A stretch of 64,000 nucleotides of DNA from Idiomarina seosinensis (lineage in GTDB: Bacteria > Pseudomonadota > Gammaproteobacteria > Enterobacterales > Alteromonadaceae). Every line of letters begins with the position of its first letter. Within the stretch, counting starts at the first letter, position 1. Of this stretch, positions 1 through 57,281 are shown in pieces. The stretch covers positions 62,001 to 126,000 of the forward strand of contig NZ_PIQF01000002.1 of assembly GCF_003987275.1 (NCBI RefSeq), in the 5' to 3' direction. The notes under the pieces were generated by a model. The model searched no databases and had not been told where the DNA came from. It was given only the letters and a program-made list of their open reading frames with translations. Position numbers and translations under genes: made by a program.

Positions 1-537
1 ATTGTTCAGATTAAGCAAGGGTTCACCCATGCCCATCATCACCACATTGGTTACCGGTTTAATTCCTGTCTTGCCGTAAGCACCAAGTAACTGGTTAACA
101 CGCCAAACCTGACCGATAATTTCAGCCACGTTCAGGTTACGGTTAAAGCCCTGTGCACCGGTTGAGCAAAATGTACATTCGAGTGCGCAACCAACCTGTG
201 ATGAAACACACAACGTGGCACGATCGCGTTCAGGAATCCACACTGTCTCAACGTCTTGCCCGTCAAATAGAGTCATTACAAACTTAATGGTACCATCAGA
301 GGACTGCTGCTGTTCTCTAATTTCAGGCGCCCTAATCTCTGCAACTTGCTGTAACTTTTGACGCAATGCTTTGTTCAAGTTGGTCATTTCGTCAAAGTCG
401 TCGACACAAAAATGGTACAGCCACTTCATGACCTGGTCGGCACGAAATGGTTTCTCACCGATGTCGCTGAAAAACTCTTTCAGTCCCTCGCGGTTTAGGT
501 TGAGAAGATTCACTTTTTTGTCGATGGTATTGGTCAT
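1..537 (-). CDS. rlmN: 23S rRNA/tRNA adenine-C2 methyltransferase RlmN (3' part beyond the window)
   Basis: Radical-SAM enzyme that methylates C2 of A2503 in 23S rRNA and A37 in some tRNAs. The visible 179 codons are the N-terminal half, starting at an ATG read from 537; the rest lies left of the window. The radical-SAM cluster motif CALECTFC (CxxxCxxC) is present, followed by the [10 protein letters not shown] block shared by RlmN and Cfr. The N-terminal part carries the helical accessory segment with the [11 protein letters not shown] stretch seen in RlmN. It lies downstream of ndk on the same strand, an arrangement common in gammaproteobacteria, but a 223-bp palindromic repeat separates the two genes. 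RlmN rather than Cfr is inferred from this context and the housekeeping-like sequence. Confidence 0.95.
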
Positions 538-550
538 ATAAATCCTGTTG

Positions 551-755
551 TGGGCCTGCGGCGGTGTAGACTCACGCTTTGCGCTTGCGGTATGGGCTCC
601 GGCTATGCCGTCGCGGCGTGGCGTGCCGCCTTTCGGCGCACGGGTTTAGGGGCTTCGCCCGTCAATAATTAAACACGAGCGTAGCGAGTCTATACCCGCG
701 AAGCGCCACACCGCGAGGGCGCAGCCGGAGCCCACCCCGCGAACGAAGCGGGCCT
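551..755. repeat. Palindromic intergenic repeat, family 2, copy A
   Basis: GC-rich inverted-repeat mosaic filling the ndk-rlmN gap. Perfect inverted pairs include GGGCTCCGGCT at 594-604 with AGCCGGAGCCC at 723-733, and TAGACTC at 567-573 with GAGTCTA at 686-692. Inside is a small hairpin GGGC-TTC-GCCC at 650-660 following GGGTTTA. The same core, in the form TTTAGGGGCT then CGCCCGTCAA, recurs near 46734-46754 and in modified form near 50061-50080. No credible open reading frame. In transcripts from ndk into rlmN it would fold into a large structured spacer. Confidence 0.75.
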
Positions 756-760
756 ATCTT

Positions 761-1192
761 TTAGCGTGTACGTGGGCAGATTTCTTCGTCGCTGAAGAAG
801 TAAGCAATTTCACGTGCTGCTGATTCAACGGCATCTGAGCCGTGGACTGCGTTTTCGTCAATAGTTTCAGCATAGTCTGCGCGTAGCGTTCCTGCCAGTG
901 CTTCTGCTGGGTTAGTAGCACCCATAATTTCACGATTTTTTAATACCGCGTCTTCGCCTTCCAGCACTTGTACAACGATTGGGCCAGACGTCATAAACTC
1001 AACTAGCGCGCCGAAGAAAGGACGCTCTTTGTGTTCTGCGTAAAAACCTTCTGCTTGCTCTTTGCTCAGGTGCATCATTTTAGCTGCAACAATGCGAAGA
1101 CCCGCGCTTTCAAAACGAGTATAGATAGCGCCAACTAAGTTTTTAGCAACTGCGTCGGGCTTGATGATTGATAAAGTGCGCTCTAAAGCCAT
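761..1192 (-). CDS. ndk: Nucleoside diphosphate kinase
   Basis: Transfers the terminal phosphate of ATP to other NDPs and dNDPs through a phosphohistidine. The 143-residue length is that of the bacterial family. The catalytic histidine is H117 in the NAVHGSDA motif, and the N-terminal SIIKPDAV nucleotide-binding strand is intact. The ATG is preceded by GGAGT at good spacing. It is followed on the same strand by rlmN. In relatives such as Shewanella the isc operon normally lies just upstream of ndk; here msrA and a truncated isc locus occupy that place. The cytoplasmic function is secure. Confidence 0.97.
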
Positions 1193-1241
1193 TTTCTTAC
1201 TCCAAAAAAGGTTTTAACCTGTGATTAAATTTTCCGCGCGA

Positions 1242-1270
1242 ATTATACGGGATATTTGTTTAAAAATCGA
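1242..1270 (-). promoter_or_regulatory. Probable sigma-70 promoter of ndk
   Basis: On the minus strand a consensus -10 TATAAT (1247 down to 1242) stands 17 bp from TCGATT (1270-1265), a weak -35. Transcription would begin about 45 bp before the ndk start codon. Seen in sequence only; the -35 match is poor. Confidence 0.5.
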
Positions 1271-1362
1271 CTACCGATTGATTGTTTCCAACTGCTTTCT
1301 GAGTTAGGATGACATTATTATATAGCCATATAGACGTCCATTTGACGTAAGGAGTTGTAAAC

Positions 1363-1890
1363 ATGGCCCAGGCAACATTAGGTGGCGGTTGTTTTTGGTG
1401 TATAGAATCAGCCTTTCTACAGGTTAAAGGCATTGAGAAAGTTCAGTCGGGATATACCGGTGGAGATACTGAGAACCCAACTTACAAACTGGTATGTACC
1501 GGCACCACCGGACATGCAGAAGTCGCTCAGCTAACCTATAACCCGGAGGTAATTTCTTACCGCCAAATCTTAGAAATTTTCTTTACCCTGCATGATCCGA
1601 CACAGCTGAATCGACAAGGTAATGATGTTGGTACTCAGTACCGCAGCTCGATTTTTTACCACGACGACGAACAAAAGCATGAGGCTGAGCAAGTTATAAA
1701 AGAACTTGAAGAAGACGATGCGTTCGCTGATCCGATCGTGACAGAAGTATCAACGTTAGAAACGTTTTGGGCAGCTGAGGACTATCACGAAAACTATTTT
1801 AATCGTAATCCTGAAAACCCCTACTGTCAGGCGGTTATATCACCGAAGCTGGCGAAGTTTCGGAAAACGTTTTCCAGTTTGCTGAAATAG
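1363..1890 (+). CDS. msrA: Peptide-methionine (S)-S-oxide reductase MsrA
   Basis: Reduces the S-epimer of methionine sulfoxide, free or in proteins, using thioredoxin. The catalytic GCFWC motif has the nucleophilic cysteine at residue 10 and a second cysteine at 13. The family blocks GYTGG, GHAEV and YHQ-like YHENYF are recognisable. At 175 residues it is a compact MsrA domain with no MsrB fusion. AAGGAG lies just upstream of the ATG. It is transcribed divergently from ndk and convergently with iscS, sitting where iscUA-hscBA-fdx would be expected in relatives. Its 3' end runs directly into two stem-loops shared with the end of iscS. Confidence 0.96.
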   Translation: MAQATLGGGCFWCIESAFLQVKGIEKVQSGYTGGDTENPTYKLVCTGTTGHAEVAQLTYNPEVISYRQILEIFFTLHDPTQLNRQGNDVGTQYRSSIFYHDDEQKHEAEQVIKELEEDDAFADPIVTEVSTLETFWAAEDYHENYFNRNPENPYCQAVISPKLAKFRKTFSSLLK

Positions 1891-1952
1891 CTTGCGTCGC
1901 TGACGCAAGTCAACACTCAAGGCAGTTACGTCTATGACGCGACTGCCTTGAG
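1891..1952. terminator. Two adjacent stem-loops between msrA and iscS
   Basis: First hairpin: CTTGCGTC-GCT-GACGCAAG at 1891-1909, beginning one base after the msrA stop. Second: an 11-bp perfect stem, CTCAAGGCAGT at 1916-1926 with its complement at 1942-1952, whose loop contains an inner CGTC-TAT-GACG and the iscS stop codon (1932-1934). Neither is followed by a strong T-run, so intrinsic termination is plausible but not textbook. The GTC-NNN-GAC tip recurs in other intergenic hairpins of this window. Confidence 0.6.
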
Positions 1953-3089
1953 CTTATTATAAACCTGCAAAATATGTTCTATGGCGTGCTCGACGTCTGC
2001 TTCGCTGGTTTGCCGACCAAAACTGAAGCGCAGCGAGGCGTGCGCCAACTGGTCGTTAATGCCAAGAGCTCTAAGCACGTGGGATGGTTCGACGCTGGCA
2101 GAAGTACAGGCTGACCCGGACGAAATCGCTAAATCTTTTAACGACATTAATAAGACTTCGCCTTCAACCCCGGCGAAACGCAAATTAACAATGTTAGGTA
2201 CTCGATATTGGTCGCTGCCGTTAAGCTCAATGCCATCGGTTGCTAGTAGTGGTTGTAAAAACTTAGATCGTAGCTGCTCAAAGTACTCGATATCTTGCTG
2301 CATTCTGTTCGCCGCCACTTCTGCGGCTTCGCCCAGCCCCACGATCTGGTGAGTAGCAAGAGTTCCGGAACGCATTCCCCGCTCGTGTCCACCGCCATGA
2401 ATTTGAGCCTCGATTCGTACTCTTGGTTGCCGACGAACATATAACGCACCAATGCCCTTAGGACCGTACATTTTATGCGCGGACAGCGATAGTAGATCAA
2501 TTGGCAGGCGACTGACATCAATCGGTAATTTGCCGACGCTTTGCGCCGCGTCGACATGAAATAGAGTGTCATTATCACGGCAGATTTGACCAATCGCCTC
2601 AATATCCTGCTGCACCCCAAGCTCGTTATTAACATGCATAACACTGACCAAAACCGTGTCTGATCGCAATGCTGAGCGCAGTTCGTCTAAATCGATACGA
2701 CCATCTTGATCAATCTCTAAATAGGTAACCTCGTACCCTTCTTTAACCAATTGAGTCGCTGGGTCTAATACCGCCTTATGCTCACTTTTGACGGTGATCA
2801 AATGTTTGCCTTTCTCTTTCAAAAAGTGCGCAACGCCTTTCAGCGCCAAATTGTCAGATTCAGTCGCTCCCGAGGTGAAAACAATTTCACGCGCATCGGC
2901 ATGAATAAGATCGGCGACCTGATTGCGGGCTATATCAACTGCTTCTTCGGCTTGCCAACCATACCGGTGAGAGCGCGAGGCAGGATTGGCATAGACGCCA
3001 TCGCTGGTAAGAAATTGCATCATCTTCTCGGCCACCTGCTTGTCGACCGGTGTGGTTGCCGCGTAATCCAGATAAATAGGCAATTTCAC
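1932..3089 (-). CDS. iscS: Cysteine desulfurase IscS, short C-terminus
   Basis: PLP enzyme that takes sulfur from L-cysteine as an enzyme-bound persulfide for Fe-S clusters and tRNA thiolation. The PLP lysine is K206 in [10 protein letters not shown] and the persulfide cysteine is C328 in SSGSACTS, the same numbering as E. coli IscS. The protein has 385 residues against 404 in E. coli: the tail that ends WAHH there and helps contact IscU is missing. It lies 34 bp downstream of iscR, but iscU, iscA, hscB, hscA and fdx do not follow. The stop codon lies inside a stem-loop. Start supported by the YLDYAATTP beginning. Function is secure; the partner scaffold is unknown from this window. Confidence 0.95.
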
Positions 3090-3123
3090 TGCGCAATGAC
3101 TCCTTTAGTGTTTATCGGTAGTG

Positions 3124-3582
3124 CTAAATAACGTTAAGTTCTATTTTATCACTCGCCTGACGTTCGCTCATAAAAGCGACGTCTTTGCTATCCATCAGCT
3201 CCGCCAACGTAATGCCATTTAAGAACTCAGCAATGCGGTCGCTCAAACCTTCCCATAGTGAATGAGTTAAGCAGCGTTCACCTCCCTGACAATTGGCTTT
3301 ACCCTGACAACGGGTCGCATCTATCGACTCGTCCACAGCATCAATAACCGCGCCAACAGAGATTACTTGAGCATTTTTACCCAACTGATAGCCGCCGCCG
3401 GGACCCCGAACACTATGTACTAAACCGCGTTTACGCAGTCGTGCAAACAGCTGTTCAAGGTAAGAAAGTGAGATACCTTGTCGTTCTGAAATATCGGCCA
3501 GCGGTACTGGATTTTCCTTAGCAAACATAGCTACATCCAGCATAGCCGTTACGGCATACCGGCCTTTTGACGTCAGGCGCAT
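3124..3582 (-). CDS. iscR: Fe-S cluster regulator IscR (Rrf2 family)
   Basis: Rrf2-type winged-helix repressor that senses Fe-S status and controls isc and other genes. The N-terminal HTH begins [18 protein letters not shown]. Cluster ligands C92, C98, C104 and H107 occur in the [11 protein letters not shown]...GERCLTH segment and match E. coli IscR numbering. The wing with GPGGGY is intact. Length is 152 residues (E. coli 162). Directly upstream is a near-consensus IscR type 1 operator over the promoter, so autorepression by the [2Fe-2S] form is expected. iscS follows in the same operon; nothing else of the isc set does. Confidence 0.96.
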
Positions 3583-3614
3583 GATCTAATCCTCTTCGCT
3601 TCGCGTATTCGCCA

Positions 3615-3646
3615 AGTTTACTTTCCTGACTAAATTAGTCAAGTAT
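3615..3646 (-). promoter_or_regulatory. iscR promoter with IscR type 1 operator
   Basis: Minus strand: -35 TTGACT (3642-3637), 16-bp spacer, -10 TAAACT (3620-3615). The 25-bp palindromic block at 3622-3646 (ATACTTGACT, AATTT, AGTCAGGAAA) agrees with the published IscR type 1 consensus at 23 of 25 positions and overlaps the -35. It begins within the trmJ stop codon. The match supports classical feedback repression of iscRS by holo-IscR. Confidence 0.8.
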
Positions 3647-4374
3647 TAGCATTTCTTGTCGATCGAAGCGAGAATGCCGCGCAAAATGTTAAGTTCGCTC
3701 TCTTCCGGTCGCGCCCGATTGTACAAGCGTCGCAACTTAGTCATCACTTGCCCTGGATGGCTTTTAACAATAAACCCAGTGTTATAAAGCGTTGTTTCAA
3801 GGTGTTGATAAAACCGTTCTAGCTCTTCAGCCCGCGGATAATCGCCGATATCTTGTTGTTGCTGATAACGCGATTGTTCGGCCTCTGCCTCAAGATGCTG
3901 CAAACGCAATTCATAACACACCGTTTGCACTGCCATCGCCAAGTTCAGCGAGCTGTAATCTGGATTAGTCGGGATATGCAAATGATAATGGCTCAATTGC
4001 AACTCTTCGTTGGTCAGGCCATTGTTCTCACGCCCGAATACAATCGCCACCTTATGCTTTGGAGCCTCCGACAATACTTTTGCCGCGGCCTCCCGCGGTC
4101 CTAAAACAGGCCAGTCCAAGGTGCGGTTACGAGCGCTGGTTGCTAATACCAACGAGCAATCACTAATGGCCTCTTGTAGGGTATCAACAGTGTTGGCATT
4201 GGCCAGAATATCAGTCGCTCCGGCAGCTAATGCAGAGGCGTGACTGTCTGGCGCTTGCACCGGATCGACCAGCGTTAATTGCTTTAAGCCCATCGTCTTC
4301 ATCGCTCTGGCTACAGAGCCTATGTTGCCGGTGTGTGAGGTATTTACGAGTACAATTTTAATAGTATCAAGCAT
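3646..4374 (-). CDS. trmJ: tRNA (cytidine/uridine-2'-O-)-methyltransferase TrmJ
   Basis: SPOUT-class enzyme that 2'-O-methylates C32/U32 in the anticodon loop using SAM. The chosen start, [14 protein letters not shown], matches the E. coli MLQNIRIVLVETSH start; a longer in-frame reading exists but would overlap the suhB upstream region. SPOUT blocks [25 protein letters not shown] and [10 protein letters not shown] are intact, followed by the helical C-terminal extension ending about residue 242. No strong ribosome binding site is visible. It is divergent from suhB and directly upstream of iscRS, as in E. coli and relatives. Confidence 0.95.
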
Positions 4375-4490
4375 GATGTTTGGTCTGTTTGTTGACTGTC
4401 TGCTGCTGAATAAAAGTTGTGCATGATAGCGCATTACTGGTATTATCCGCGACCGAAAAATCGTTCTTTGACAGCACAGGTAATTTGAAT

Positions 4491-5270
4491 ATGCATCCGA
4501 TGTTAAACATTGCGGTGCGCGCAGCGCGTGCAGCCGGCAAAATTTTAGTCAAGCAGTTTGATCAAGGTCAACCGATCGACGCAGTCTCGAAAGGCCCTAA
4601 TGATTGGGTATCAGAGATGGACAAGGCGGCCGAACAAGCAATCATTAGCACTATTCGTAAATCGTATCCAGACCATGGAATTATTGCGGAAGAGAGCGGC
4701 CAACAAGCCGGTTCGGATAATGATTTCCAATGGGTTATTGATCCGCTGGATGGCACCACAAATTACCTGCGCGGTATCCCTCACTTCTGTATTTCTATTG
4801 CGTTGTTACATAAAGGCTCTGTGCAGCAGGGCGTGGTCTACGATCCGATTCGTGAAGAGTTATATACCGCATCACGCGGCGCCGGTGCGCAATTGAATGG
4901 CCGTCGTTTGCGGATTTCTCCGAAAGTTGAATTAAAAGATTCAATACTGGCGACAGGCTTTCCATTTAAGGCAAAACATAAGTTGCCGGAATACCAGCAA
5001 ATGTTTAATAACCTATTTGAACATTGCGCAGACATGCGCCGTGCGGGCTCTGCCGCTTTAGATTTAGCCTATGTAGCAGCTAGCCGCCATGACGGTTTCT
5101 TCGAAATGGGATTAAAACCTTGGGATATGCTGGCTGGCGAATTATTGATTCGCGAAGCCGGAGGTATCATCTGCGACTTTAACGGCGGTCACAACTACGT
5201 ACAAACTGGCAACGTAGCCGCCGGCGCACCTAAAGTCCTGAAGCAAATGCTGCCATTGATGCGTCTGTAA
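4491..5270 (+). CDS. suhB: Inositol-1-monophosphatase family protein SuhB
   Basis: Mg-dependent phosphatase of inositol monophosphate. In enterobacteria SuhB also binds NusA and joins the rRNA antitermination complex. The start [17 protein letters not shown] matches E. coli, so a 24-residue longer reading is rejected. Metal-binding motifs [14 protein letters not shown] and the C-terminal [16 protein letters not shown] are present. Length is 259 residues. It is transcribed divergently from trmJ and ends just before a perfect 12-bp stem-loop. Assignment is secure; the antitermination role is inferred from the family. Confidence 0.95.
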
Positions 5271-5561: not shown

Positions 5562-5838
5562 AAAAATGTTTCTGTTAACAATTAATTCACAACTAACTTA
5601 ATACCATAACAGCGGTGAGATTAAAAGATATTTGTTACGAAAATGTTGCAAATTCATCATCTTTCGATGACCATTTTATTCCGAATCAAGGGAGCGACGA
5701 GCGGCATTCCATAGCAGCCGCCGAGGAACACGAATGGCTTCGCCCCATCGGCAAGCCGATGGTCGGATCCGTCGCACCTTTACCCGTCACCCTCGGTGCG
5801 GATAAAAAAACCTCCACCCGCGATCCCTCAGAGTCACG

Positions 5839-6004
5839 TTTTTAAAAACGATTGGTGTTAAATGCTCTGATGTCCATGGCTACCGGGAAGTCCCTTCAGA
5901 TCTTGGGTAGCCTTCGGCTCGCCGAAGGGGCAGGAGGTCGTCGACAACTCCGATGGTCGGATCCGTCGCACCTTTACCCGTCACCCTCGGTGCGGATAAA
6001 AAAA
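5839..6004 (+). repeat. Direct repeat unit (Z+Y), copy 1
   Basis: About 165 bp repeated without indels 369 bp downstream. It runs from the TTTTTAAAAACG segment through the CCTTCGG hairpin to the GGATAAAAAA end. The only clear differences from copy 2 are near 5940-5946 (GTCGTCGACA against GTCATCGGCA) and at 5986 (CCCTCGG against CCTTCGG). Confidence 0.85.
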
Positions 6005-6207
6005 AACCGCCATCCGCTATCTGAGAACCGAATAAAGAGCCTTTTTTCGGCATCCCCGATACCAATAACATCGTTCCCATTGCACACCGCGGACGCGAAT
6101 AGCGGCATTCCAATTGGGCCGCCGAGGAACACGAATGGCTTCGCCCCATCGGCAAGCCGATGGCTACCCACGATATGAACAATATCCAGCAATCCCGAAA
6201 TATCGAT

Positions 6208-6373
6208 TTTTTAAAAACGATTGGTGTTAAATGCTCTGATGTCCATGGCTACCGGGAAGTCCCTTCAGATCTTGGGTAGCCTTCGGCTCGCCGAAGGGGC
6301 AGGAGGTCATCGGCAACTCCGATGGTCGGATCCGTCGCACCTTTACCCGTCACCTTCGGTGCGGATAAAAAAA
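6208..6373 (+). repeat. Direct repeat unit (Z+Y), copy 2
   Basis: Second copy of the 165-bp unit, exactly 369 bp after copy 1. It ends about 25 bp before the ung stop codon. On the minus strand its T-run (GGAGG then seven Ts) is the first thing transcribed after ung, so it may end the ung transcript. Confidence 0.85.
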
Positions 6374-6398
6374 CCTCCACCCGCCCCCCGCGATGCCA

Positions 6399-7070
6399 TC
6401 AAGCGCCCCAATTAATCGGCTGACGCCCTACGCTTTGCAGGTAGTCATTGGCTTTGCGGAAGTGGTGAGCGTCGAAAAAACCACGGTGGGCGGATAGGGG
6501 CGATGGGTGTACCGTTTTTAGAATGCAATGTTTAGAGCCATCAATCAGCTCGGCTTTCTTCTGCGCGTGGGCTCCCCACAACATAAACACGATATGCTGA
6601 TGCTTATCAGCCAGTTTTTGAATCACCGTATCGGTGAAAGTCTCCCAGCCCCATTTTGCATGACTATGCGCTTTGCCCTGCTCCACCGTCAGTACCGTAT
6701 TCAGTAACAAAACACCTTGCTCTGCCCAACGCGTCAAATCGCCGTTTTGCGGAGGCTGACTATCCGGGTAGTCAAGCTGAATGGCTTTTAAAATATTGCG
6801 CAGCGATGGCGGCAGCTTTACACCCTCTGGCACAGAAAAACTCAGCCCGTGGGCCTGGCCTGGACCATGGTACGGATCCTGACCCAGAATAACAACTTTT
6901 ACGTTATCCGGCGGCGTCTGCGTTAATGCATTAAAAACGTCTTCTTGTTCAGGGTATACCGTGCCCTGCTGCCGCGCTGCTGCGACTTTTGCCATTAAAT
7001 CGGTAAAGTACGGCTTGGTTTTTTCATTGCCAAGCAACGGTCTCCAACTTTGCTGTTTCTCTGGAATCAC
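6399..7070 (-). CDS. ung: Uracil-DNA glycosylase, family 1
   Basis: Removes uracil from DNA to start base-excision repair. The water-activating loop GQDPYHGP has D65 as the catalytic aspartate; the downstream HPSPLSAHRG loop carries the catalytic histidine. LLNTVLTV and GWETFTD blocks complete the family-1 pattern. 223 residues, close to E. coli Ung. The start is GTG, preceded by AGG at about 7 bp, and the ATT upstream gives no better choice. It is divergent from the glycosyltransferase operon and its 3' end abuts the hairpin-repeat array with no spacer. Confidence 0.96.
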   Translation of the reverse strand: MIPEKQQSWRPLLGNEKTKPYFTDLMAKVAAARQQGTVYPEQEDVFNALTQTPPDNVKVVILGQDPYHGPGQAHGLSFSVPEGVKLPPSLRNILKAIQLDYPDSQPPQNGDLTRWAEQGVLLLNTVLTVEQGKAHSHAKWGWETFTDTVIQKLADKHQHIVFMLWGAHAQKKAELIDGSKHCILKTVHPSPLSAHRGFFDAHHFRKANDYLQSVGRQPINWGA

Positions 7071-54692: not shown

Positions 54693-57281
54693 GTGCTTAA
54701 TGAATATCGCCAGCACGTCGAAGAACGTGCCGCAGAGGGGATCCCTCCAAAACCACTAACCGCCGAGCAAGTCGCAGACTTAATTGAGTTGCTAAAAAAC
54801 CCGCCAGCTGGTGAAGAACAGTTTTTAGTTGAACTACTGGCTGAACGCGTACCACCGGGTGTTGACGAAGCAGCTTATGTTAAAGCGGGCTTTTTGAGTG
54901 CGTTAGTAAAAGGTGAAATCAACAGCCCTGTTATTAGCAAACAAGACGCGGTGAAGTTACTGGGTAACATGCACGGTGGCTATAACATAGTAACACTGGT
55001 TGAGTTGCTTGATGATGAAGAGCTCGCCGAGCTTGCTGCCGAAGAGTTAAAGCACACGATACTAATGTTCGACGCCTTCCACGACGTGGAAGAGAAAATG
55101 AAAGCTGGCAATACACTGGCTAAAGAAGTAGTCCAGTCGTGGGCAGATGCAGAATGGTTTACCAGCCGTGACAAATTGGCGGACAGCATTACAGCAACCG
55201 TCTTTAAAGTGACCGGCGAGACCAATACCGATGATTTATCACCAGCGCCTGATGCCTGGTCACGGCCTGATATTCCACTGCATGCTAAAGCGATGTATAA
55301 AATGCCACGCGAAGGCATCACCGACGCCGGTAAGCAGATTGACGAGTTAAAACAGAAAGGCCACCCGGTGGCTTTTGTCGGCGACGTGGTCGGCACTGGC
55401 TCTTCGCGGAAATCAGCGACCAACTCGGTGTTATGGAACATTGGCGAAGATATGCCAGGAACGCCTAACAAACGTGCCGGTGGTATCTGCATTGGCGGTA
55501 AAGTTGCACCGATCTTTTTTAACACCATGAAAGATGCCGGTGCCTTAGTATTTGAAGCCGACGTCGATAAAATTGAAATGGGCGATATCATTACGATTTA
55601 CCCTTACCAAGGAAAAATCGAAAATGAAGCAGGCGAGATCGTCGCTGAGTATGACTACGCCTCGCGAGTCATTCTCGACGAAGTTCGTGCTGGCGGTCGA
55701 ATCAATTTGATTATCGGTCGTGGCTTAACCAGTAAGGCCCGTGAGTCACTCGGTTTAGGCCACAGCGATTTATTCCTTACTCCAGAGCAGCCAGAAGACA
55801 GCAATAAAGGCTACAGTCTGGCACAAAAGCTGGTCGGTAAGGCTTGTGGTATGGAAGGCGTTCGTCCGGGAACATACGTAGAGCCGAAAATGACGACCGT
55901 AGGCTCTCAGGATACCACCGGGCCAATGACTCGTGACGAATTAAAAGACCTGGCTTGCCTGGGCTTTAATTCCGATTTAGTGATGCAGTCTTTCTGTCAT
56001 ACCTCTGCTTATCCAAAGCCGGTCGATGTAGAAACACAGCACACATTACCTGATTTTATTATGAACCGCGGTGGTGTCTCGTTACGTCCTAACGACGGAA
56101 TCATTCACAGCTGGTTGAACCGTATGCTGTTGCCCGATACTGTCGGTACTGGCGGTGACTCACATACGCGTTTCCCACTAGGCATCTCATTCCCGGCTGG
56201 CTCTGGCTTAGTAGCCTTTGCGGCAGCAACCGGCGTAATGCCATTGGATATGCCAGAATCCGTACTGGTTCGCTTTAAAGGCAAAATGCAGCCAGGTATT
56301 ACCCTGCGTGACTTGGTTCATGCCATTCCTGCGTTCGCTATCAAGGAAGGTCTGTTAACGGTTGAGAAGCGCGGCAAGAAAAACGCATTTTCCGGCCGAA
56401 TCCTGGAGATTGAAGGTCTTGAACACTTAACCGTAGAACAAGCTTTCGAACTTTCTGATGCGTCTGCAGAGCGCTCTGCCGCGGGTTGTACTATTAACCT
56501 GTCAGAAGAGTCTGTGGCTGAGTACCTACGCTCAAACATTACCATGTTGCGTTGGATGATCAACGAAGGCTATGGTGACGCGCGCACACTCGAGCGCCGT
56601 GCTCGCAAAATGGAAGATTGGTTAGCAAACCCAGAGCTTACTCGTGCTGATAAAGATGCTGAGTACACAGAAGTTATCGAAATTGACCTGGACGAAATTA
56701 AAGAGCCAATCGTCTGTTGCCCGAACGATCCGGATGACGCTAAGTTCTTAAGCGAAGTTGCCGGTGATAAAGTAGACGAAGTATTCATTGGTTCTTGTAT
56801 GACCAACATCGGTCACTTCCGTGCTGCCGGTAAACTGTTGGAGAAGAACTCTGACCCACTGAACACACGGTTGTGGATTGCGCCGCCAACTAAGATGGAT
56901 AAAGCGCAGTTAGAAACCGAAGGTTACTACGACATTTATGAGCGTAACGGTGTGCGTACAGAGATGCCGGGTTGTTCACTGTGCATGGGTAACCAGGCGC
57001 GTGTTGAGCCTAATTCAACCGTACTATCAACCTCGACTCGTAACTTCCCGAATCGTTTAGGCGACGGTGCTAACGTTTACTTAACCTCAGCGGAATTGGC
57101 CGCGGTTGGTGCTATTATCGGTCGGCTGCCGACTCCACAGGAATATATGGAGTACGCACAAGACATCAATGCCATGGCGGGTGAAGTTTATAAGTATCTA
57201 AACTTTGACCAAATGGATGCCTTCCGCAGCGCCGAAAAGGCCGCTAAGGAAAATATCATTCCAACCATTAACGTGGCTTAA
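54693..57281 (+). CDS. acnB: Aconitate hydratase B
   Basis: TCA-cycle [4Fe-4S] enzyme converting citrate to isocitrate; also an iron-responsive RNA-binding protein in E. coli. 862 residues. HEAT-like N-terminal domain, then the swivel with VGDVVGTGSSRKSATNS, and catalytic domains with cluster ligands in the PGCSLCMGNQARV motif plus an upstream cysteine in FIGSCMTNIGHF. GTG start with GAGG at 9 bp and product start LNEYRQHVEERAAEG, as E. coli. TATAAT at 54632-54637 is a possible -10 without a good -35. Depends on the Fe-S assembly discussed for iscS. Confidence 0.97.
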   Translation: MLNEYRQHVEERAAEGIPPKPLTAEQVADLIELLKNPPAGEEQFLVELLAERVPPGVDEAAYVKAGFLSALVKGEINSPVISKQDAVKLLGNMHGGYNIVTLVELLDDEELAELAAEELKHTILMFDAFHDVEEKMKAGNTLAKEVVQSWADAEWFTSRDKLADSITATVFKVTGETNTDDLSPAPDAWSRPDIPLHAKAMYKMPREGITDAGKQIDELKQKGHPVAFVGDVVGTGSSRKSATNSVLWNIGEDMPGTPNKRAGGICIGGKVAPIFFNTMKDAGALVFEADVDKIEMGDIITIYPYQGKIENEAGEIVAEYDYASRVILDEVRAGGRINLIIGRGLTSKARESLGLGHSDLFLTPEQPEDSNKGYSLAQKLVGKACGMEGVRPGTYVEPKMTTVGSQDTTGPMTRDELKDLACLGFNSDLVMQSFCHTSAYPKPVDVETQHTLPDFIMNRGGVSLRPNDGIIHSWLNRMLLPDTVGTGGDSHTRFPLGISFPAGSGLVAFAAATGVMPLDMPESVLVRFKGKMQPGITLRDLVHAIPAFAIKEGLLTVEKRGKKNAFSGRILEIEGLEHLTVEQAFELSDASAERSAAGCTINLSEESVAEYLRSNITMLRWMINEGYGDARTLERRARKMEDWLANPELTRADKDAEYTEVIEIDLDEIKEPIVCCPNDPDDAKFLSEVAGDKVDEVFIGSCMTNIGHFRAAGKLLEKNSDPLNTRLWIAPPTKMDKAQLETEGYYDIYERNGVRTEMPGCSLCMGNQARVEPNSTVLSTSTRNFPNRLGDGANVYLTSAELAAVGAIIGRLPTPQEYMEYAQDINAMAGEVYKYLNFDQMDAFRSAEKAAKENIIPTINVA

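Follow-up and report, generated by a model that had tools for sequence, protein, structure and literature searches.

We analysed a 64,000-nucleotide window of the Idiomarina seosinensis genome (contig NZ_PIQF01000002.1), at one end of which the genes for the regulator IscR and the cysteine desulfurase IscS stand without the rest of the iron-sulfur cluster (ISC) operon. The window spans C2:62001-126000 of a genome (G000) of 2,685,339 bp that is 99.97% complete. Window positions 1-5270 hold, in order, rlmN (partial), ndk, msrA, iscS, iscR, trmJ and suhB; msrA and suhB are on the plus strand and the others on the minus strand. An open reading frame for the 5' part of rlmN, cut by the window start (1-537), bounds the ancestral isc slot on the right, and a suhB-like gene (4419-5270), which we use as a marker only, bounds it on the left. 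Between them lie ndk, encoding nucleoside-diphosphate kinase (761-1192; above the NF001908 cut-off), msrA (1363-1890; profile match), iscS (1932-3089; profile match and alignment), iscR (3124-3582; 152 codons, profile match) and trmJ (3646-4434; open reading frame and profile match), whose start is probably near 4374, as the first 20 residues fall outside the family match. A putative type-1 IscR operator 5' of iscR (3622-3646) differs from the motif printed in PMC3899308 at 2 of 25 positions, and its 13-base core is exact.

The stops of msrA and iscS are only 41 bp apart (1891-1931) in a continuous locus, so no remnant of iscUA-hscBA-fdx persists in the slot. Two members of the window's genus, G505 and G517, carry iscUA-hscBA-fdx in exactly this slot, alongside a 404-residue IscS, and together with G546, from a sister genus, they retain the complete operon, with iscS and msrA on either side. 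Since msrA lies between fdx and ndk in these three genomes, it marks the exact deletion in the window. An earlier, sequence-only reading of the window had proposed this loss by reference to Shewanella-like relatives; such relatives do carry the operon, but its nearest carriers are in the same genus. That reading had also described two hairpins in the slot, and both are real by folding (z of -6.5 on the plus strand and -7.3 on the minus strand). One follows msrA (1890-1910); the other (1916-1952) contains the last codons of iscS, with the stop codon near its tip, and is likely a shared terminator of the convergent iscS and msrA. The shortened end of iscS thus doubles as terminator-like sequence.

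The window IscS has 385 residues and lacks the IscU-docking C-terminal tail. Its alignment with E. coli IscS (PDB 1p3w; 404 residues) is gap-free and covers residues 1-381 of that protein, so that K206 and C328 have identical numbers in both proteins; the end of the last helix (a12) and the tail are gone, in agreement with the claim that the protein stops before the segment contacting IscU. The catalytic residues H104, K206 and C328 are retained, as are W45, E49, D52, R55, R220 and R237. Substitutions include R112T, R116K, S312V and E347Q. The protein passes the PRK14012 IscS cut-off (623.9 versus 548 bits) and does not reach that of the TIGR02006 IscS equivalog (606.2 versus 643.2 bits), the match to which stops at profile position 381 of 402. 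IscR passes TIGR02010 (217.7 versus 207.55 bits), does not reach PRK10857 (256.1 versus 275 bits), and keeps its cluster ligands C92, C98, C104 and H107 as well as E43. Retention of K206, C328 and the IscR cluster cysteines had been noted from the letters of the window, and the alignment and residue check bear it out.

The genome has no ISC assembly system: it has no IscU, no HscA above cut-off, and the slot genes are gone. No match to PF01592 (IscU/NifU/SufU type) was found across the genome at E≤0.001, with a control profile search matching 12 of 14 genomes, and TIGR01991 (HscA) matched only below its cut-off; these genome-wide searches rule out an ISC system elsewhere in G000. The slot contains no iscA, hscB or fdx (hscB and fdx were looked for at the locus only). 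A profile search of the genome found no frataxin (CyaY), a loss beyond those named in the sequence-only reading. A sulfur mobilization (SUF) operon lies about 361 kb away, at about C2:426172-432196, with sufB, sufC, sufD, sufS, a sufA-like gene, sufT and a sufE-like gene. As in other gammaproteobacterial SUF systems, SufB, SufC, SufD, SufS and SufT reach curated NCBIfam cut-offs; the SufA-like and SufE-like proteins fall short of the SufA and SufE equivalog cut-offs. NfuA and TusA are both present, and A-type proteins match three times, within suf, within the NfuA frame and on contig C3.

Loss of iscU and of the IscS tail among relatives

IscU (PF01592) is present in 230 of 295 genomes of the family and 272 of 295 of the order, and in 2 of 16 examined genomes of the window's genus (G505 and G517). 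Of 65 genomes tested for SUF, all 35 without iscU have it, as do 2 of the 30 with iscU. Across 62 genomes, CyaY was found by profile search in 26 of 26 genomes with iscU and none of 36 without, in agreement with a report that every cyaY-bearing genome also had iscU (PMC4440780). HscA (TIGR01991) was above cut-off in the same 26 genomes, and TusA was found in all 62. A weak PF01592 match turns up somewhere in three genomes classed as lacking iscU (G344, G482 and G255); the iscS loci of G344 and G482 contain no iscU.

We compared IscS at 154 loci whose iscU status was judged by locus content. At 99 of 99 loci with iscU, IscS has the tail (at least 400 residues, with a final H), and S384, P385, L386, W387, M389, G393, W401 and H404 are invariant. 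The tail is gone at 53 of 55 loci without iscU. Thus, a short IscS beside iscU, for which the sequence-only reading had suggested looking, occurs at 0 of 99 loci. In a profile search of the genus, IscS matched to position 402 of 402 in 2 of 19 genomes and ended at 373-382 in the other 17. Partial or scrambled tails occur in G482, G164, G153 and an Erwinia persicina locus (L079). The 154 loci exclude G450 (frameshifts), G307 (partial IscU), L081 (named Alteromonas, with a short IscS and suf), and L047 and L064 (counterparts of G551:C3 and G557:C3). At the G307 locus (L156), IscU residues 1-40 alone match, next to a 404-residue IscS and with no SUF match; judging from the match, this iscU is a broken gene or an assembly fault. 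A few genomes encode another enzyme resembling IscS/NifS, with E about 1e-93 to 1e-97 (G505:C12:198249-199370, G566:C15:179583-180686, G309:C1:45881-47032 and G490:C33:53571-54677).

On a quick tree of TrmJ, SuhB, RlmN and Ndk (93 rows; eight rows with fewer than two marker genes left out, G307 included as iscU-positive), iscU changes 17 times, with 14 changes forced by starred branches. Of 14 independent contrasts, the tail follows iscU in 12.5, does not differ in 1.5 and goes the opposite way in none (p 0.00024-0.00049). Dropping long rows leaves 14 changes; of 11 contrasts, 9.5 follow and none is opposite. A careful tree (85 rows) gave 15 changes, 11 of them forced, and 11 contrasts, again with 9.5 following and none opposite (p 0.002-0.004); G307 was left out of both of these analyses. 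As judged from these trees, the pairing of iscU loss with IscS tail loss recurs in independent lineages.

The position of suf varies. In Alteromonas-like genomes (g3; named locus L081) suf occupies the isc slot, in the order iscR-iscS-sufBCDSATE-ndk, and in G303, G331, G341 and G388 it is inverted behind iscS. Genus g128 is mixed: G357 has ISC only, G323 and G384 have both systems, and G428 and G446 (81% and 71% complete, respectively) have SUF only, with a short IscS. The SufBCD proteins of g128 group with those of g136 (starred) and g102, unlike the position of g128 in the flanking-gene tree, which suggests that suf was transferred between lineages.

Putative IscR operators at suf

In E. coli, cluster-bound IscR represses type-1 sites, and apo-IscR activates suf at a type-2 site (PMC8593673). 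In G000, suf is preceded by a type-1 site (C2:426115-426139). Allowing up to 3 mismatches, we found 137 occurrences of the type-1 motif in 1,605,484 bases of locus sequence, each of them at most 400 bp upstream of iscR or sufB; sites stand at 81 of 83 iscR loci and 36 of 54 sufB loci, as compared with 1 of 10,800 shuffled sufB upstream stretches (single-base shuffles). With up to 4 mismatches, the numbers are 82 of 82 and 42 of 54. Nine of the 12 sufB loci without a site have iscR directly before suf, and the G303 stretch is incomplete; neither arrangement exists in G228 and G097, which belong to another family and truly lack a type-1 site before suf. In G090, G509, G482, G327, G164, G173 and G255, iscR heads suf and itself bears a type-1 site. 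In seven SUF genomes (suf loci L208, L209, L210-L212, L215 and L219) iscR is apart from iscS: it heads suf in G301, G397, G305, G327 and G482, and lies behind sufE on the opposite strand in G338 and G455.

Whereas E. coli suf has a type-2 site, suf here has a type-1 site or is headed by an iscR that has one. With up to 8 mismatches allowed, a scan of 361 bases before suf (L013, 7900-8260) with a type-2 consensus that we assumed found no such site. By the operator pattern, a type-1 operator very probably places suf under IscR control. Since cluster-bound IscR represses type-1 sites in E. coli, suf probably has here the feedback that isc has there. The sequence-only reading had IscR still sensing clusters; the ligands are indeed kept, but the role that it assigned is too narrow if, as is very probable, IscR governs suf as well.

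Conservation and decay of IscS surfaces

Contacts of IscU on IscS are described at E309-A316, E347, the end of a11 and R379-K391, and deletion of residues 376-404 abolishes IscU binding; TusA contacts W45, E49, D52, R55, R220 and R237, and CyaY and IscX depend on R116, R220, R223, R225/E227, G234, R237/M239, A327 and R340 (PMC2854127). We counted these residues in 53 of the 55 rows without iscU, leaving out G090 and G509. The TusA sites are nearly fixed: W45, E49, R55 and R220 are kept in 53 of 53 rows and R237 in 52, and position 52 has D in 46 rows, with E in the remaining 7. CyaY-type sites are kept far less often (R116 in 8 rows, E227 in 8, R225 in 23, R340 in 28, R223 in 31), with other CyaY/IscX sites mostly retained (G234 in 49, M239 in 51, A327 in 53). 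Among IscU contacts, E309 is kept in 21 rows, S312 in 18 and E347 in 37.

Counted over about 14 independent contrasts, the largest losses are at W401 (13.5), D395 (12.0), M389 (11.8), R116 (11.7) and R112 (11.5), and TusA sites are lost in 0-0.7. We set a loss threshold of 4, by our own choice, for Fisher tests whose p values are uncorrected for multiple tests. CyaY-type sites not common to TusA reach it in 4 of 6 cases, versus 17 of 169 other conserved columns (p 0.002), and the IscU sites in a8 plus E347 in 3 of 7, versus 18 of 168 (p 0.038). The alignment indicates that, where iscU is absent, the catalytic and most TusA-contact residues of IscS stay, and the IscU and CyaY surfaces decay in part.

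Elsewhere in the window, an AcnB gene lies at 54693-57281 on the plus strand. The gap between rlmN and ndk contains a 42-nt inverted repeat (582-745; arms 81% complementary, 80 nt apart), and a repeat cluster at 5694-6384, between suhB and an open reading frame at 6399-7070, comprises a 188-nt unit twice (93%), a 66-nt unit three times, a 69-nt unit twice, and inverted arms.

Discussion

We consider it highly probable that SUF has replaced ISC under the control of IscR, and that IscS was kept for TusA-type sulfur transfer while shedding its IscU tail. On this proposal, SUF (sufBCDS-A-T-E) would have been acquired, iscU to fdx deleted and frataxin lost. IscR would have been retained, acting on suf via the type-1 operator, to which it binds with its cluster, so that the old feedback loop would steer SUF. 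As a cysteine desulfurase, IscS would supply TusA-type sulfur transfer, for example in tRNA thiolation, and, without IscU and frataxin, would shed the tail that docks IscU along with much of the patch facing frataxin. Because g128 has mixed states and G090 and G509 keep the tail, we infer that SUF gain came first, then loss of IscU and CyaY, then loss of the tail. The idea of a real switch of systems, put forward from the window alone, is strengthened by a complete SUF system elsewhere in the genome, by the joint absence of scaffold, HscA and tail, and by the independent recurrence of the pairing. Retention of IscS for tRNA-type sulfur transfer, proposed at the same time, appears to be supported indirectly, by TusA in 62 of 62 genomes and by the kept TusA-contact residues.

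Several observations weigh against this reading. TusA also occurs in every genome with iscU, so its presence is no proof of why IscS stays. G090 and G509 have SUF and lack IscU and CyaY, yet retain a full-length tail; they differ from conserved iscU-positive columns at 2 (including W401R) and 12 positions, respectively, as compared with 27 for the window and a mean of 0.94 for rows with iscU. In rows without iscU, the helix a8 contacts G310 (50 of 53), E311 (49), L313 (51) and M315 (48) persist, so the IscU face decays only in part. The window IscS itself still has E309 and part of the CyaY patch (R223, R225, E227, R340, F89 and K101). Finally, change counts do not separate loss from regain.

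An unlikely alternative, but the strongest, is that IscS still feeds iron-sulfur assembly, through SufE and SufBCD or for a few clusters such as that of IscR, and that tail loss is merely neutral. The window iscS does remain beside iscR, behind a type-1 operator, and a lone iscS in a genome with a SUF system is described as adding to the activity of iron-sulfur enzymes (PMC10848736). Against this, the suf operon carries its own SufS and SufE-like protein, and the separation of iscR from iscS in seven SUF genomes indicates that the pairing is dispensable. It is very improbable that a short IscS with SUF is ancestral and that some lineages regained an isc operon with a long IscS. Change counts leave room for that direction, but relatives from other families that carry the operon (among them Shewanella, Vibrio-like and Pseudomonas genomes) share the order trmJ-iscR-iscS-iscU, and the class with iscU holds 74 of 80 named loci (the best 80 of 582, picked by similarity to the window IscS). 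In G505, G517 and G546 the operon occupies the same position next to msrA, and the displaced grouping of g128 SUF fits SUF gain. We infer loss as the direction because the operon is widespread outside the family. That iscU and tail are missing through assembly gaps, frameshifts or profile misses can be dismissed: G450 is frameshifted throughout the locus and some genomes are fragmented, but the continuous window locus and the PF01592 control rule out an artefact for the window, and the one-contig genus members G405, G442, G541 and G562 likewise lack iscU and tail.

Replacement of ISC by SUF under IscR with IscS retained departs from E. coli, in which iscRSUA-hscBA-fdx has orthologous IscR and IscS and a type-1 operator before iscR; the window genome lacks IscU, HscA and CyaY, its slot lacks IscA, HscB and Fdx, and the IscS tail is gone. 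Mycobacterium tuberculosis is similar in having SUF and a single iscS without adjacent isc genes, for which tRNA thiolation has been suggested (PMC10848736, PMC8300815); its iscS is said to be in an operon with trmU, whereas iscS here has kept its place after iscR, where the isc operon once stood. Mutual exclusion of ISC and SUF is published for Gammaproteobacteria (PMC10631705), and Alteromonadaceae genomes are described as isc-only or suf-only (PMC12844025). Our genomes follow the same either-or pattern; the relevant passages of those accounts do not treat the retained IscS or the operators. In the open literature, with subscription papers mostly outside, we found neither the tail loss, nor the residue pattern, nor a type-1 site upstream of suf reported for this family; these features may tentatively be regarded as new.

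IscS is a hub that gives sulfur to IscU, TusA, ThiI and others. We lean towards regarding the repeated swaps of ISC for SUF in this family as a natural deletion experiment, in which IscS sheds the IscU tail and a basic patch (K101, R112, R116 and R225; K101 and R112 we take to be parts of the frataxin patch) while its TusA face stays fixed, such that the frataxin surface would be mapped by evolution alone. IscS would thereby be dedicated to a TusA-type relay, suf would have taken over the IscR type-1 operator, and one cluster sensor would set both SUF and the tRNA sulfur relay. A coupling analysis is reported to have recovered the IscS-IscU interface but no robust frataxin-IscS result (PMC5471300); lineages that have frataxin, compared with those that lack it, provide a different way to reach that surface. 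The family displays apparent stages in the swap of an essential machine, with genomes that have both systems and genomes that lack iscU but keep the tail. Repeated paired losses in related bacteria point to the purpose of the IscS tail, and lineages missing one client reveal the parts of the hub: the tail for IscU, the basic patch probably for frataxin, and the fixed face for TusA.

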